From IMG/VR virus record IMGVR_UViG_3300031673_000338, positions 1 to 29,895 of that record: a stretch of DNA of 29,895 nt. One strand, 5' to 3'. The notes beneath the pieces are model-generated. The model made no database searches and was not told where the DNA came from. It worked only from the letters and a program-made list of their open reading frames with translations. The stretch is from a virus. Shown piece after piece: positions 13,892 through 27,395 of this stretch. Position numbers and translations under genes: made by a program. Numbering within the stretch: the first letter of the stretch is position 1; every line of letters begins with the position of its first letter.

Positions 13892-14077
13892 TTACCCCGA
13901 CCGCGACCACGACCGCGACCGCGACCGCGCCCGCGACCACGACCGCGACCCCGACCCCGACCGCGACCACGACCACGACCCCGACCCCGACCCCGACCGC
14001 GACCACGACCACGACCACGACCGCGACCACGACCGCGACCACGACCGCGACGCACGCATCGCCATTCCGGCGGTCAT
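13892..14077 (-). CDS. Possible Ser-Arg/Ser-Trp dipeptide-repeat microprotein
   Basis: A 61-aa frame starting at an ATG that overlaps the previous stop (TAATG), with GAGGT upstream. After MTAGMAMRAS it is an alternation of Ser (TCG) with Arg, Trp or Gly (CGG, TGG, GGG), encoded by the hexamer array at 13898-14047, ending with TAA just before the terminator. In this frame the variable base of each hexamer changes the amino acid. In the neighbouring Gly-Arg frame (same strand) and the Arg-Pro frame (other strand) the variation is synonymous. So start context favours this frame, while the variation pattern favours the others. Whether any protein is made is unknown. Confidence 0.3.
   Translation of the reverse strand: MTAGMAMRASRSWSRSWSRSWSWSWSRSGSGSGSWSWSRSGSGSRSWSRARSRSRSWSRSG
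13898..14047. repeat. 25-unit hexanucleotide array (CGACCV)25
   Basis: Twenty-five back-to-back 6-base units on the plus strand, each CGACC followed by G, A or C, never T; one unit is CGCCCG. The order of the variable base is irregular. On the minus strand the frame GGT-CGN gives (Gly-Arg)n; it is the same frame as the preceding 88-aa gene, separated from it by TAA TGA and a few codons. On the plus strand CGA-CCN gives (Arg-Pro)n. In both frames all differences are silent. Confidence 0.97.
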
Positions 14078-17752: not shown

Positions 17753-18424
17753 CTATGCCCTTTCCAGCCGCGACAGGTTGCGCTTCTTGGCGACGACAGT
17801 GAACCGATTTAGCGCCTCGACTAGCTCCATGATCTTCTCAAGCGATGGTTCAGGGAGCCTGTTGTTCCCCGAGTCCGCGCCGATGTTGACCTGGACCGGC
17901 TCGCACCGCCTTATCAGCTCGACCATAGGTTCAAGGTCAAAATCCATGATCGGCTCGATGGTGACGTACTTGGGATACTTATCCATTTTCATCCCGAGTG
18001 TCCGTATTTCAGGACGTGGAGAATTCATCATTATCTCGGGATACCATCTGTTTGTTTCGATAGTGGTACAAACGACAACCTTATCTGGATTAATGTAATG
18101 ATCGTATAGAAAACACCCCATACCCATAGGATGCTTGCTCTGGAAAAGGTATCGGTTAGAATAGGCGTTGCATTTTTCAAGCGTGTCCACGATCCATTCG
18201 TTTTTGATTCCATCAGCGAACATATCGCACGACGACCCGACAAAGATGAAATTGCCTTCGCCGAGGTCGGTCTTTAATTCGCGCTTGTCGAAGTGTACAG
18301 GCTTCTGCTTTCCGAATCTCTTCATGTAGCAATATGAGCAATCGTGAGGGCAGGCACCTTTGACCGTGTTCCAGGTATGCGTCACGAAGTCGTACATATT
18401 CCCCTTGGCGATGTTCATTCCCAT
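17753..18424 (-). CDS. DUF5131 (phage Gp37/Gp68-type) radical SAM-like protein
   Basis: 223 aa, with GAAAGAGGT 6 bases before ATG 18424. A radical SAM cluster motif C25-x3-C29-x2-C32 is in GACPHDCSYCYM and would bind a 4Fe-4S cluster and S-adenosylmethionine. Further family marks: FIFVGSSCDMFADGI, the YLFQSKHP strand, and the late KYVTIEPIMDFDLEPMVELI strand. The family is common in phages and its reaction is unknown. The gene stands alone behind a candidate promoter and a leader that can fold as terminator or antiterminator. A second, unrelated radical SAM gene is on the plus strand (23831-25039). Confidence 0.85.
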   Translation of the reverse strand: MGMNIAKGNMYDFVTHTWNTVKGACPHDCSYCYMKRFGKQKPVHFDKRELKTDLGEGNFIFVGSSCDMFADGIKNEWIVDTLEKCNAYSNRYLFQSKHPMGMGCFLYDHYINPDKVVVCTTIETNRWYPEIMMNSPRPEIRTLGMKMDKYPKYVTIEPIMDFDLEPMVELIRRCEPVQVNIGADSGNNRLPEPSLEKIMELVEALNRFTVVAKKRNLSRLERA

Positions 18425-21928: not shown

Positions 21929-21941
21929 AGTCCCTCCTTGT

Positions 21942-21963
21942 CAGGTTGAAGCAGTTGTTAGGC
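21942..21963 (-). other. Half attC site (R'' and L'' only), edge of the cassette array
   Basis: On the minus strand, directly after the stop of the 70-aa gene, GCCTAAC (21957-21963) and, further on, TTCAACCTG repeat the left arm of the two complete attC sites, including the extra C before the L box. The right arm is missing: phage sequence with the ribosome site of the next gene starts immediately after. This marks a truncated junction where the array was fused to the phage genome. Confidence 0.7.
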
Positions 21964-22176
21964 TTAAAATGCAAAGCCCTTCGCTTTTTCTCGGACTTCT
22001 TTTGCCACTGCCGGATTAACAACATCAAGCCGTAACACTGCTTTTTGCAACCCACTTTTGATTGCATCGTCGCCTTCCGCAGTGTCAATAAGATCGATAA
22101 TTTCTTGCGATTCTTCGTCATCACGCAGAGTGTCGAAGACCAACATACAAGCCTGTGAAATCCCTTCAAAGTTCAT
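21964..22176 (-). CDS. Integron cassette 3 protein, small acidic, unknown
   Basis: 70 aa from ATG 22176 with AAAGGAGGT 6-8 bases upstream. All-helical and acidic: NFEGISQACMLVFDTLRDDE, then TAEGDDAIKSGLQKAVLRLD and VREKAKGFAF. No family recognised. It is the gene of the third cassette: a core GTTAGGC (attC1) lies upstream, GCCTAAC follows the stop, and a 9-bp-stem hairpin sits in the leader. The gene strand equals the array direction, as in true cassettes. Confidence 0.7.
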   Translation of the reverse strand: MNFEGISQACMLVFDTLRDDEESQEIIDLIDTAEGDDAIKSGLQKAVLRLDVVNPAVAKEVREKAKGFAF

Positions 22177-22199
22177 ATAGAACCTCCTTTGCAAATTAT

Positions 22200-22226
22200 C
22201 CAGATAAGCGCATTTGGCTTATCTGG
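22200..22226 (-). other. Leader hairpin of cassette 3
   Basis: Perfect 9-bp inverted repeat CCAGATAAG / CTTATCTGG with a 9-base loop, between attC1 and the ribosome site of the 70-aa gene. No U-run. May be part of a cassette-borne control region. Confidence 0.6.
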
Positions 22227-22233
22227 TTGTTTG

Positions 22234-22461
22234 TCAGCCTAACATTGATTTAACCTGCAAAGCCGCAGGCTGAGTCAGGTTGAAATCTGTGTTAGGCGTC
22301 TTATTCCAATCAGCCTCAGCCTCTTCCGGCGTATCCCACCATGCGTCCCATGCGTCTAAATTAGCGCATCGGTAACGATAAGCTGGAGTCGGGTCGTCTC
22401 CACACGACCACTCTTCCAATTCAATTAAAGTCTCACCACACTTCGGACAAGCCCTTAACAT
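22234..22461 (-). CDS. Integron cassette 2 protein, Lar-like zinc ribbon
   Basis: 75 aa from ATG 22461 (GGGAGGAAAT upstream). The fold resembles Lar (restriction alleviation) proteins: ACPKCGETLIELEEWSC, YRYRCANLDAWDAWWDTP, then EEAEADWNK, with Cys5, Cys8, Cys20 and Cys32 as likely ligands and the family ending 'T-x-EEA-x-x-xWN'. The last 20 residues (from TPNTDF to SMLG) are encoded by the attC site itself, a usual trait of cassette genes. A role in modulating host restriction-modification is suggested by the family but not shown. Confidence 0.75.
   Translation of the reverse strand: MLRACPKCGETLIELEEWSCGDDPTPAYRYRCANLDAWDAWWDTPEEAEADWNKTPNTDFNLTQPAALQVKSMLG
22237..22297 (-). other. attC1: integron recombination site
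   Basis: 61 bp between cores GCCTAAC and GTTAGGC (RYYYAAC ... GTTRRRY). Arms pair through GATTT and the L box AACCTG/CAGGTT, with one unpaired C in the left arm on the gene strand (G on the other), the position of the extrahelical base in known attC sites. The centre folds as AGCC/GGCT. The left core is complementary to the leading core of the cassette it belongs to (GTTAGGC at 22519-22525). Confidence 0.85.
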
Positions 22462-22518
22462 ATTTCCTCCCGCGCGTTGTCCGCGCTTTTGCCGTAGGCG
22501 AAACGCGGCAGAGCGTAC

Positions 22519-22576
22519 GCCTAACATTGAGTTGACCTGCAATCTACTGATTGTCAGGTCGAACTCTGTGTTGGAT
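22519..22576 (-). other. attC2: integron recombination site
   Basis: 58 bp. On the gene strand the left core is ATCCAAC (22570-22576) and the right core GTTAGGC (22519-22525). Arms pair through GAGTT and GACCTG/CAGGTC with the same extra C, and the centre is a CAATC/GATTG hairpin. The cores do not match each other, but the left one matches the complement of GTTGGAT (22884-22890) at the start of the same cassette, exactly as expected when cassettes of different origin are inserted in series. Confidence 0.85.
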
Positions 22577-22814
22577 GCCGGGTCATGTAAGGGTTATGCT
22601 CAAGAGCAATGATGGTTTTGAAACCTGATCCGTACTCGGCGTCCATTGGAACTTCTATACATTCGGGGTAGTACTTTGTACCTCCGCGATATTCTTTTTC
22701 TTTCTGACCGGCTTTTTCTGCCTTGGTCTTTGTAGAATATACGCCGAGTACATACGAGTGACATTCCCGATCACCCCAGCGATACATAGTAACGACATAA
22801 AGCATCTTTTTCAT
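22554..22814 (-). CDS. Integron cassette 1 protein, DUF7336-like
   Basis: 86 aa from ATG 22814 with AAGGAGGTTTT upstream. The N-terminus (KKMLYVVTMYRWGDRECH) and VLGVYSTKTKAEKAGQKEKE recall short phage and plasmid proteins of the DUF7336 type ('VY-x-V ... x-x-GVFSTKEKAE-x'). Two more strands follow (YPECIEVPMDAEYGSG). The stop lies inside attC2. This family has no known function. First cassette of the array, preceded by a leader hairpin, a lone core site and a consensus -10 box. Confidence 0.7.
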   Translation of the reverse strand: MKKMLYVVTMYRWGDRECHSYVLGVYSTKTKAEKAGQKEKEYRGGTKYYPECIEVPMDAEYGSGFKTIIALEHNPYMTRHPTQSST

Positions 22815-22979
22815 AAAACCTCCTTGGCCCGGCTTGGTCGAGTGTCAGTCTAGTGCCGTAGGCGGTAGACTGCGACTCGATCCATCCAACAGTGATTATA
22901 CCTTTCGGCATAAAATCATAGATATTTTACTATGGTTGTATTTGCTCATACGAGCAGCCCCCTCGCCTCGCGTATCTCT
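22815..22979 (-). promoter_or_regulatory. Leader of the cassette array: -10 box, core site and hairpin
   Basis: Reading leftward: a TATAAT (22895-22900) without a clear -35; GTTGGAT (22884-22890), a GTTRRRY core where cassette 1 begins; then a long imperfect hairpin (22838-22880; arms TCGAGT and CAGTCTA paired with TAGACTG and ACTCGA, inner CCG/CGG), and the ribosome site of the 86-aa gene. No second core partner lies upstream, so this looks like an attI-like or residual site with a promoter for the array. Nothing else is visible in the rest of the gap. Confidence 0.5.
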
Positions 22980-23258
22980 TTACTGTCCATCGGAGGATCC
23001 TTTCGTGCCCACGATGGCGGCTTCGATCATCCTATCTTCGCAGTCCCATAGTGAGCCGTATTCGTGTTCCCATTCAGACCCGTATAAGCGCCGCTCTTTC
23101 ATAGCACGAAGGCACGTCTTCAATACATCTCGGAACAGGTTGCGTTGCTCCCGCCTGATCTCGTCGGCGTAGGCGAGGATTAGTTTTATTTGGGGTATTA
23201 TAGTCTCGACTTTTGATATGGCAAGCGCCAATCCCGTTGCCCGCTCTTCGTTTGTCAT
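22980..23258 (-). CDS. Unknown MTNEERA-family protein, copy 2
   Basis: 92 aa, GGAGGGGG before the ATG. Shares MTNEERA, YADEIRRE and AAIVGTKG with the gene at 21653-21928, while the region between differs (FRDVLKTCLRAMKERRLYGS). Mostly helical. The pair probably arose by duplication in the phage, and the cassette array now separates them. Function unknown. Confidence 0.65.
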   Translation of the reverse strand: MTNEERATGLALAISKVETIIPQIKLILAYADEIRREQRNLFRDVLKTCLRAMKERRLYGSEWEHEYGSLWDCEDRMIEAAIVGTKGSSDGQ

Positions 23259-23830: not shown

Positions 23831-23843
23831 ATGGCAAAAGTAG
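23778..23843 (+). CDS. 21-aa truncated leader ORF (5' copy of the 25606 gene)
   Basis: ATG with GGGAGG upstream; reads MTKATRTVNWTMADGKSIW and two more residues, then TAG. It equals the start of the 154-aa protein at 25606 (MTKATRTESWTMADGRSM) and is then cut by the radical SAM gene, whose ATG lies at 23831 in another frame inside it. Ribosomes finishing the leader would be placed on the radical SAM start, so it may serve as a translational coupler. Confidence 0.6.
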   Translation: MTKATRTVNWTMADGKSIWQK

Positions 23844-25039
23844 GGGTACTGTCATATTCCCAAGAGAAGGATAGGTGCGGTCAGCAGAAATGCAATTCCC
23901 TATTCTCTCTTCCCAAGGCGACGATAGGGTTTCAACGGATTATATCCGATGCATCAAAACTGCACGAAGTGCGGTATGTAGACATCACCGACACATGGGC
24001 TGATTTCTGGCTTGCATCTGTGGTCTCTTGGTATGATATATATAATCTAATCCGGGCTATTGGGACGACAAAACCCCATGCTCGCCTCGTTGTGGGCGGG
24101 CCGGGGATGCTTAATCCGTGGCCGCTACAAGATGTCATATGGGCCGCGGTGATAGGCAGGGGGGAGGGATTGATCAACAGGGTGATGGACCATGACTTGT
24201 CGGTATGCAACGCATGGTACAGCGATATCCCCGACAGAATAATCACCATAGGTCAGGCTACTGACCAGATATGCTCCGTTCGAGAGACAGAAGCCTCGAT
24301 AGGCTGCCCAAAAAAATGTTTTTTCTGCGAATATGGATGGAAATACAACTACAAGAATTGGAGCGGACAATATAGCGAATACGCCAACGGTGAAACATTT
24401 TTTAGGGACATCGATTTTGGAAAAGGAAGTGCAACTGCCGGGCTTGATGGAATAACGGAGAACGAGCGGTATGTAGTTAACAAGGCGCTGTCTTCGCAAG
24501 AGATTGTCAATACCTTGGCTCGACACACTATTCGGGACAATTTCCGGCTAAAATTATTCTGTGTTACTTCCTATCCTTTCACCTCTGGTTATAATTTCGA
24601 CGAGTGGGAATCGGTATTGGATCAAGCGGCAAGGGTTGTAAAAAAACCTATCACTATAATGCTGTCGTTATCGCACTTTTGCCCAATGCCGTTCACCCCC
24701 ATGGAGGAGGAGCGGGTACTGTTTTTTGACCGGATACAACAGGCTCCCAAAATGGCAGGGAAAATCAAGTGGATGACATACCTGCAAGGTACTACCGTAG
24801 CAAGCGCGGCCTATGAGTCAATGATTTTTAGGGCTCTCCCATCGGATAATATCAGAGGGCTCATACTGGGCAACAAGCCATGCGGCGATACAGCCAATGA
24901 GATTGGCAATATATTCCCCCACGTGATCGACGGAGGATATATTCCGGTCCCCTTGATCTCGCGTCCATATGACGTAGCGGCTGGGAAAAGAATATACCGA
25001 TCAAGGGTACTGGAAAAGTATGGGGAGAAGGCGATATGA
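23831..25039 (+). CDS. Radical SAM protein with B12-binding-like N-terminal region
   Basis: 402 aa. Residues 1-150 look like a Rossmann/B12-binding-type domain (MAKVGVLSYS, KPHARLVVGGPGML, then VIGRGEGLI), but no DxHxxG cobalamin motif is seen. The radical SAM motif C159-x3-C163-x2-C166 lies in IGCPKKCFFCEYGW. A barrel follows (FRLKLFCVTSYPFTSGYNFD, PITIMLSLSHFCPMPFTPME). Substrate unknown. The gene has no ribosome site of its own and starts inside the duplicated leader ORF, so it looks inserted. Its AT-richer codon use (ATA, AAA, TTT) differs from the GC-rich genes after 25606. ATGA-overlaps the next gene. Confidence 0.82.
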   Translation: MAKVGVLSYSQEKDRCGQQKCNSLFSLPKATIGFQRIISDASKLHEVRYVDITDTWADFWLASVVSWYDIYNLIRAIGTTKPHARLVVGGPGMLNPWPLQDVIWAAVIGRGEGLINRVMDHDLSVCNAWYSDIPDRIITIGQATDQICSVRETEASIGCPKKCFFCEYGWKYNYKNWSGQYSEYANGETFFRDIDFGKGSATAGLDGITENERYVVNKALSSQEIVNTLARHTIRDNFRLKLFCVTSYPFTSGYNFDEWESVLDQAARVVKKPITIMLSLSHFCPMPFTPMEEERVLFFDRIQQAPKMAGKIKWMTYLQGTTVASAAYESMIFRALPSDNIRGLILGNKPCGDTANEIGNIFPHVIDGGYIPVPLISRPYDVAAGKRIYRSRVLEKYGEKAI

Positions 25040-26531: not shown

Positions 26532-27395
26532 ATGCTTATAGACAAAGACTTTGCAGGTCTGAAATTCAACGGGTATTCCTACGAGTTTGAGGGCAATATC
26601 GAAAGCGCTGGCTCGATAGAGATCACCGTTCCGCTGATGGTTTCCGGGTGGATCGAGGCTGGCGGGTGGATCACGGCTGGCGAGTCGATCGATGCTGGCG
26701 AGTCGATCGAGGCTGGCGAGTCGATCAAGGCTGGCGGGTGGATCAAGGCTGGCGAGTGGATCAAGGCTGGCGAGTGGATCAAGGCTGGCGGGTGGATCAC
26801 GGCTGGCGAGTGGATCAAGGCTGGTGAGTCGATCGAGGCTGGCGGGTGGATCAAGGCTGGTGAGTGGATCAAGGCTGGCTGGTCGATCGAGGCTGGCGGG
26901 TCGATCACGGCTGGCGGGTGGATCACGGCTGGCAGGTGGATCACGGCTGGCGAGTCGATCAATGCTGGCGGGTGGATCACGGCTGGCGAGTCGATCGAGG
27001 CTGGCGAGTCGATCGAGGCTGGCGAGTCGATCAAGGCTGGCGAGTCGATCGAGGCTGGCGGGTCGATCGCGGCTGGCGGGTCGATCGCGGCTGGCGGGTG
27101 GATCAAGGCTGGCGAGTGGATCAAGGCTGGCGAGTGGATCAAGGCTGGCGGGTGGATCAAGGCTGGTGAGTCGATCAAAATGTATGGGATAGAAACAAAA
27201 CATCTTTATATTTTCCACGGGACTTTTGCTTTTACGGTCTGGGTTATGGACACGCATATAAAAGTTGGTTGCCAGTTAAAAAGCAAGGCCGAATGGAAAA
27301 CATGGCTTGACAACGCTGATAAAGACAAGGCAGCGCAACTCGGCGATGATGGCTCGATGTGGACGATACGCGAAGTGCTCGCGAGGTTTTTGTGA
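26532..27395 (+). CDS. Hexapeptide-repeat (probable beta-helix) protein
   Basis: 287 aa with a near-perfect AGGAGG site. Three parts: an N-terminal 40 residues (DKDFAGLKFNGYSYEFEGNI), 29 units of A-G-x-(S/W)-I-x (about residues 43-216), and a 70-residue C-terminal domain (HLYIFHGTFAFTVWVMDTHI, then KSKAEWKTWLDNADKDKAAQ). A hydrophobic residue every sixth position with small Ala-Gly pairs is the pattern of parallel beta-helices, as in hexapeptide or bactofilin-like folds. The x positions are E/G/W/R and E/K/T/N/D/A. No signal peptide. The role is unknown; such rods may be structural or bind ligands. Close relatives would be expected to vary in repeat number. Confidence 0.75.
   Translation: MLIDKDFAGLKFNGYSYEFEGNIESAGSIEITVPLMVSGWIEAGGWITAGESIDAGESIEAGESIKAGGWIKAGEWIKAGEWIKAGGWITAGEWIKAGESIEAGGWIKAGEWIKAGWSIEAGGSITAGGWITAGRWITAGESINAGGWITAGESIEAGESIEAGESIKAGESIEAGGSIAAGGSIAAGGWIKAGEWIKAGEWIKAGGWIKAGESIKMYGIETKHLYIFHGTFAFTVWVMDTHIKVGCQLKSKAEWKTWLDNADKDKAAQLGDDGSMWTIREVLARFL
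26658..27179 (+). repeat. 18-bp tandem repeat, 29 units, coding
   Basis: Unit GCTGGCGAGTCGATCGAG and variants. GCT-GGC and ATC are almost invariant in DNA, while codon 3 switches GAG/GGG (also TGG, AGG), codon 4 TCG/TGG, and codon 6 GAG/AAG/ACG/GCG/AAT/GAT. All changes between units are amino-acid changes, apart from a few GGC/GGT differences. Confidence 0.97.

Follow-up and report, generated by a model that had tools for sequence, protein, structure and literature searches.

Organisation of the cassette array

The window, i.e. the whole stretch of DNA analysed here, comes from IMG/VR, where it is recorded as a linear contig of 29.9 kb. It was identified as phage from its terminase large subunit, HK97-type portal and major head protein, all of them clear, and the nearest named relatives of the portal, from Microcystis and Sinorhizobium phages, are 33-34% identical. 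Elsewhere in the window are a 287-aa ORF (26532-27395, plus strand) that consists largely of 29.5 copies of an 18-bp tandem repeat (26648-27178) and encodes residues such as SIEAGESIKAGEW, 26 copies of the six-base tandem repeat ACCGCG between the portal and terminase genes (13894-14051), and two radical-SAM-like genes (17753-18424, minus strand, and 23831-25039, plus strand), one of which matches DUF5131.

The array is flanked by two copies of a phage gene, MTNEER. Along the minus strand, the order is MTNEER copy b, head, cassette 1, attC site B, cassette 2, attC site A, cassette 3, half attC and MTNEER copy a:

22980..23258, minus strand: MTNEER copy b, phage gene upstream of the array
22884..22926, minus strand: attI-like array head, 43 nt, first core GTTGGAT (22884-22890) included
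22895-22913, minus strand: palindrome of the head, TTATGCCGAAAGGTATAAT, followed by CACT and then by G/TT
22525..22890, minus strand: cassette 1, lead core GTTGGAT, ending at the crossover point of attC site B; own R'' box ATCCAAC
22554..22814, minus strand: ORF of cassette 1, 86 aa, DUF7336 / phrog_3002 (PF24024 and PHROG profiles)
22519..22576, minus strand: attC site B, ATCCAAC...GTTAGGC, recognised by covariance model R1, fold and identity with phage TJE1
22243..22525, minus strand: cassette 2, lead core GTTAGGC, own R'' box GCCTAAC
22234..22461, minus strand: ORF of cassette 2, 75 aa, zinc-ribbon protein with some resemblance to Lar (see below), extending into attC site A
22237..22297, minus strand: attC site A, GCCTAAC...GTTAGGC, recognised by covariance model R1 and fold
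21940..22243, minus strand: cassette 3, lead core GTTAGGC, terminating in a half attC (R'' box GCCTAAC)
21964..22176, minus strand: ORF of cassette 3, 70 aa, ATG start with a Shine-Dalgarno sequence
21940..21963, minus strand: half attC, R'' and L'' arm only, GCCTAACAACTGCTTCAACCTGAC, joined to the ribosome binding site of the next phage gene
21653..21928, minus strand: MTNEER copy a, phage gene immediately downstream of the array

The likeliest starts of the ORFs of cassettes 2 and 3, at 22461 and 22176, both combine an ATG with a Shine-Dalgarno sequence. The original prediction had placed here two complete attC sites, a half site, the lead core GTTGGAT and three co-directional cassette ORFs, and all are present; apart from the two ORF starts, the extent of the half site, given as 21942-21963, has to be corrected to 21940-21963.

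The attC sites

The window attC sites contain the R'' and R' cores RYYYAAC...GTTRRRY and, as had been proposed, the left core of each site exactly complements the lead core of its own cassette (ATCCAAC with GTTGGAT, and GCCTAAC with GTTAGGC twice). The rule thus holds in three of three cassettes, the R'' box of cassette 3 being that of the half site, and it is mostly exact across the viral arrays. The L boxes carry one extra base in L'', an extrahelical G of the bottom strand that appears as an unpaired G in the plus-strand fold of both sites.

The sites were searched with a covariance model of our own, R1, distinct from that of IntegronFinder and built from an alignment (A1) of 36 attC sites of cellular genomes; these training sites were gathered through an L-box pattern taken from the window, so that R1 is not fully independent of it. 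On the gene strand, R1 detects site A with 63.4 bits (E 9e-18) and site B with 52.6 bits (E 2.8e-14), and gives the half site only 12 bits (E 0.37). Folding of the bottom-strand DNA yields z-scores of -6.2 for site A and -7.4 for site B, with none of 200 shuffles equally good, and the half site is without a fold (z +0.7). In a structural scan that ignores the L-box sequence, site A passes (2 matches in 300 dinucleotide shuffles) and site B falls below the strict cut because its R' box is part of the next cassette. No Rfam family matched at its gathering score, the matches by E-value being at chance level, and a plasmid search returned no match to the array or to site B.

Lone hairpins are common, and loose structural rules give 22 matches in 30 shuffled windows, which would be in line with chance inverted repeats or another kind of phage repeat. 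That reading is already refuted, and we give it practically no weight, in view of the R1 E-values (9e-18 and 3e-14), the core rule and the related viral loci, which hold over 100 sites. With at least two attC sites and, within the linear contig, no integron integrase nearby, the array has the composition of a CALIN, and the data support the reading of its cassettes as true ones carried by a phage.

Relatives of the attC sites

The best match of site B in a named phage is found in Tetrasphaera phage TJE1 (1020-1080, 87% identical over 61 bp), one of the phages with integrase-less arrays described by Qi et al. 2023 (PMC9892861). Two adjacent attC sites of TJE1 are reported there to recombine with attI1 via IntI1 in vivo (PMC9892861). 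R1 detects three sites in TJE1, and as the middle one (1016-1075) is that related to site B, we infer that it must be among the two adjacent sites assayed.

Over 100 additional attC sites, on dozens of contigs, came from pattern scans of IMG/VR. The exact two-half attC subtype of sites A and B is present in the window and in seven fetched IMG/VR contigs, TJE1 included, and had no match in 84,980 cellular genomes (GTDB). A wider attC pattern was therefore used, and in GTDB genomes this wider type belongs mostly to Treponema and other spirochaetes, plus scattered MAG contigs. Proteobacterial intI loci contained only four clear attC sites, too few for a model. Two loci considered as Fibrobacter and Oscillospiraceae integrons (L108 and L112) were dropped, being short MAG contigs that are maybe misbinned phage DNA.

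These results bear on the proposal that the phage took up cassettes from a host integron and could carry them between hosts. The cassettes in the phage are true ones, but their uptake from a host integron, or a recent capture from a host chromosome, is not supported: the two-half subtype was found in several other viral contigs and had no match in the cellular genomes searched, where the wider type does occur, above all in Treponema. Carriage between hosts is plausible, and movement between unrelated phages is seen at the sequence level.

A conserved head at the start of phage arrays

In plain blastn the window head is 78% identical over 54 bp to the leader of the viral locus L060, and homologous leaders are also found by nhmmer; both L060 arrays (contig G021) begin with the same leader. 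In each viral array, a sequence complementary to the R'' box of the first attC was sought upstream of that site, and a second covariance model, R2, was then applied. The same kind of head was found in about 22 distinct viral contigs besides the window, and the head-bearing contigs are mostly unrelated, with a GC content of 34-57%. The consensus reads TTA[TG][AG]C-NGANNR-...TAA, then a short fixed spacer and GTTRRRY, the palindrome being at a fixed distance from the first GTT with 4 nt to G/TT; the TJE1 head is one base shorter and spans the start of the record.

In an alignment of 20 heads (A3), pairwise identity is 0.68 within the palindrome versus 0.31 in the 13 nt upstream, and the two arms covary (score 0.253, versus 0.139 when shuffled and at most 0.083 when slid). 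R2 gives 37.7 bits to the window head, a copy that belongs to its training set. Its viral matches up to E 0.002 are array heads, and three heads from outside the training set (L049, L051 and L056) each have an attC or attC-like sequence downstream. The head pattern, run over all of IMG/VR, gave five sites in four contigs, all of them array starts already known through attC. As regards the attI character of the head, two cassettes are joined to it at G/TTRRRY in related phages. No promoter above chance was found near the window head; a minus-strand TATAAT within the head has no good -35.

A palindrome could also be a transcription terminator or an operator instead of a recombination site. PMC9892861 annotates the TJE1 copy, where an inverted GTTRRRY palindrome opens the array, as a putative terminator, and several spirochaete intI genes are closely followed by a similar palindrome. 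However, no T run follows the head, the terminator scan of the window does not list it, its 4-nt spacing to G/TT is fixed and cassettes are joined to it at the core, which makes this explanation very improbable. An array that begins with an attI-like head recurring in phages supports the view that the phage carries a cassette platform, and not just trapped cassettes.

Cassettes shared between unrelated phages

Contigs G010 and G019 share a cassette, the third of G010 (97 aa) and the first of G019, with 97% identity over 383 bp. By tblastn they have no other gene in common, and blastn adds only two short matches of 36-73 bp. The shared cassette lies behind an attC in one contig and directly behind the head in the other, with similarity from TGTT on. 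A cassette common to L006 and L049 (82% over 273 bp) shows the same switch of position between attC and head. As far as sequence comparison can tell, such a change of position with its boundary at the core is the trace left by integron-integrase integration at an attI. The G010 and G019 copies of this first cassette have kept R'' and L'' but have different attC centres, a difference that is not expected from pure IntI exchange and points to extra homologous exchange via the attC arms.

Cassette 3 of the window is nearly identical in L060 / G021 (352 bp at 98.9%); the window and G021 have only this module in common, and their portal types differ. The two arrays of L060 carry different cassettes behind the same head. 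In IMG/VR there were no close relatives of cassette 1 or of the 303-aa neighbour gene, and a search with cassette 2 matched only its attC-encoded tail; the window cassette proteins had no tblastn match among named phages.

The half site as a fixed end

The junction of the half attC with the next gene, CTAACAACTGCTTCAACCTGACAAGGAGGGACTATGACAAACGAAGAG, is identical in the window, both L060 arrays and L062, and the half attC is followed by AAGGAGGGACTATGACAAACGAAGAG in these same arrays (window, L060 twice, L062) with three different last cassettes. Judged by these junctions, the half site is a recurrent fixed end. A one-off deletion had been considered and was dropped, as the same junction recurs in L060 and L062. 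Because a half attC cannot fold, the last cassette should be locked. In array 1 of L060 the half-site core mismatches its cassette.

MTNEER paralogs come after the half site in L060 (10773-12229) and in L062 (8344-8604), and copy b of the window is 94.7% identical to G021 over 227 bp. The family is multi-copy, mosaic between otherwise unrelated phages and found beside each of these arrays; it may itself be a recombination hotspot.

An alternative is that cassettes spread mainly by homologous recombination through the attC arms of about 20-25 bp and the repeated MTNEER genes, an integrase having acted only when the cassettes were first made. The retention of R'' and L'' around another attC centre in the G010/G019 cassette, the invariant half-site junction and the mosaic MTNEER genes would all agree with it. 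Against this, the left boundaries fall at the core behind different sequences (attC or head) in two independent pairs, and the head is conserved without the cassettes. We consider homologous recombination as the main route unlikely.

Cargo and missing integrase

Among 44 cassette proteins scanned, we found three Dam, three N6/N4 methylases, three Lar restriction alleviation proteins, one Mom and one RtcB; phage cassettes encode an RtcB RNA ligase in L005 (4328-5437) and a Mom-like DNA modification protein in L048 (2816-3520). In the window, the cassette 1 protein matches PF24024 (DUF7336) with 27.5 bits, for a cut-off of 25, and phrog_3002 at 1.8e-7. The cassette 2 protein matches Zn_ribbon_8 at E 0.018; its resemblance to Lar is by eye only and not significant in Pfam. 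The longer form of the cassette 3 protein (21964-22194) has no Pfam or PHROG match.

The window was said to lack an integron integrase, and indeed a search for tyrosine recombinases (PF00589) in this linear 29.9-kb contig was empty; an integrase may lie elsewhere in the phage. None of 35 viral contigs, some of which are fragments, had an integron integrase above the cut-off, and ten head-bearing contigs had no PF00589 match. The intI gene that defines a complete integron was not found in the window or in the related contigs searched, so that no intI was seen to adjoin the head there either. A terminase of one large family is encoded in at least 15 of 31 contigs, so these contigs are phages. 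The only host hint comes from a viral contig (L047/L074) that sits in a Spirochaetales MAG having its own intI.

The missing integrase in the window and the broken last attC would fit a frozen relic, i.e. a piece of host integron with its attI, acquired once by illegitimate recombination and now inactive. Yet neither cores nor folds show damage, mostly unrelated phages carry conserved heads, the same cassettes occupy different positions and different cassettes stand behind the same head, as partly seen in the two arrays of L060; a relic is accordingly improbable.

Comparison of the head with cellular attI sites

R2 gave no match at E 0.01 over 296 spirochaete genomes; the motif is too short for whole genomes, and intI-anchored loci were therefore searched instead. 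In those of spirochaetes, R2 has 22 matches, 16 of which fall on the intI strand in the first 400 bp downstream of the gene, a zone that makes up about 5% of the locus sequence searched. This is also where attI is located in Treponema, whose intI is transcribed in its direction (PMC3607928). In a control phylum R2 matches were fewer, yet a few were near intI too. Many cellular matches consist of an attI core, at about 125 bp, and lack the full palindrome; the closest, L132, reads GGAACGGTATAATCAATG/TTAGCC against CGAAAGGTATAATCACTG/TTGGAT in the window. As the cellular attI matches each score weakly (E 0.014 to about 4), it is by position that the head appears to resemble the sequence downstream of spirochaete intI genes.

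The palindrome of phage heads (e.g. TTATACGGATCAGTATAA) also occurs in several spirochaete integrons (L169 20-53, L171 1418-1459, L177 2444-2481 and L183 1061-1102), at 8-60 bp past the intI match and separate from the putative attI core, which lies at about 125 bp.

Discussion

Cassettes without an integrase in phages have been known since 2023, and this kind of array is already published (PMC9892861); what the original prediction missed is the attI-like head, the occurrence of the same cassettes in different phages and the fixed end. The CALIN of TJE1 likewise has attC sites without an integrase and cassettes in one direction, and the available text of that report neither recognises the palindrome as a conserved head common to phages nor mentions a half-attC end or one cassette recurring in unrelated phages. 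It also describes a CALIN with its own attI in the Shewanella prophage M16-3, where an attI likewise opens an array in phage sequence; that attI is of the Shewanella type, however, and the inactive prophage also holds a complete integron (PMC9892861). The chromosomal integrons of Treponema (PMC3607928) share the attC type of the window and an attI downstream of intI, with R2 matches there, but they have an intI, and their attI is not the full covarying palindrome of phage heads. Finally, a class 1 mobile integron follows the same logic of attI, cassettes and attC, whereas the window array is phage-borne and comes with no intI, no shown Pc and no resistance cargo seen. In the literature searched, which excluded preprints and most subscription papers, we found no description of a conserved attI-like head, of cassette exchange between unrelated phages or of a locked end.

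We favour, with a probability of roughly 0.68, an integrase-less integron platform of a tailed phage that is served in trans by the IntI of its host. The parts of the platform would be the attI-like head, two full cassettes and a third whose attC is cut to half and fused to a phage gene. The phage would enter a cell having an integron integrase of the spirochaete type, and this enzyme could act in trans on the head and on attC sites folded from the bottom strand, so that new cassettes enter at the head and existing ones are shuffled. The half attC, unable to fold, would hold the last cassette and the next phage gene in place, and the cargo would supply exchangeable accessory functions, anti-restriction being prominent. 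The host enzyme thus probably swaps genes in and out of phages.

On a wider scale, the balance leans slightly towards unrelated phages having a common dock, made of a covarying attI-like head, attC cassettes and sometimes a locked half-attC end, together with a cassette pool rich in anti-restriction genes and a reliance on host integron integrases: a parasitic, modular counter-defence platform. Phage-borne cassette arrays have so far been known as scattered cases. If true, a conserved docking site and the same cassettes in unrelated phages would amount to a standing platform that exploits host integrases, would explain how small anti-restriction genes are exchanged one at a time among phages, and would tie integron biology to phage counter-defence, with the head as a short DNA signature for finding such platforms.
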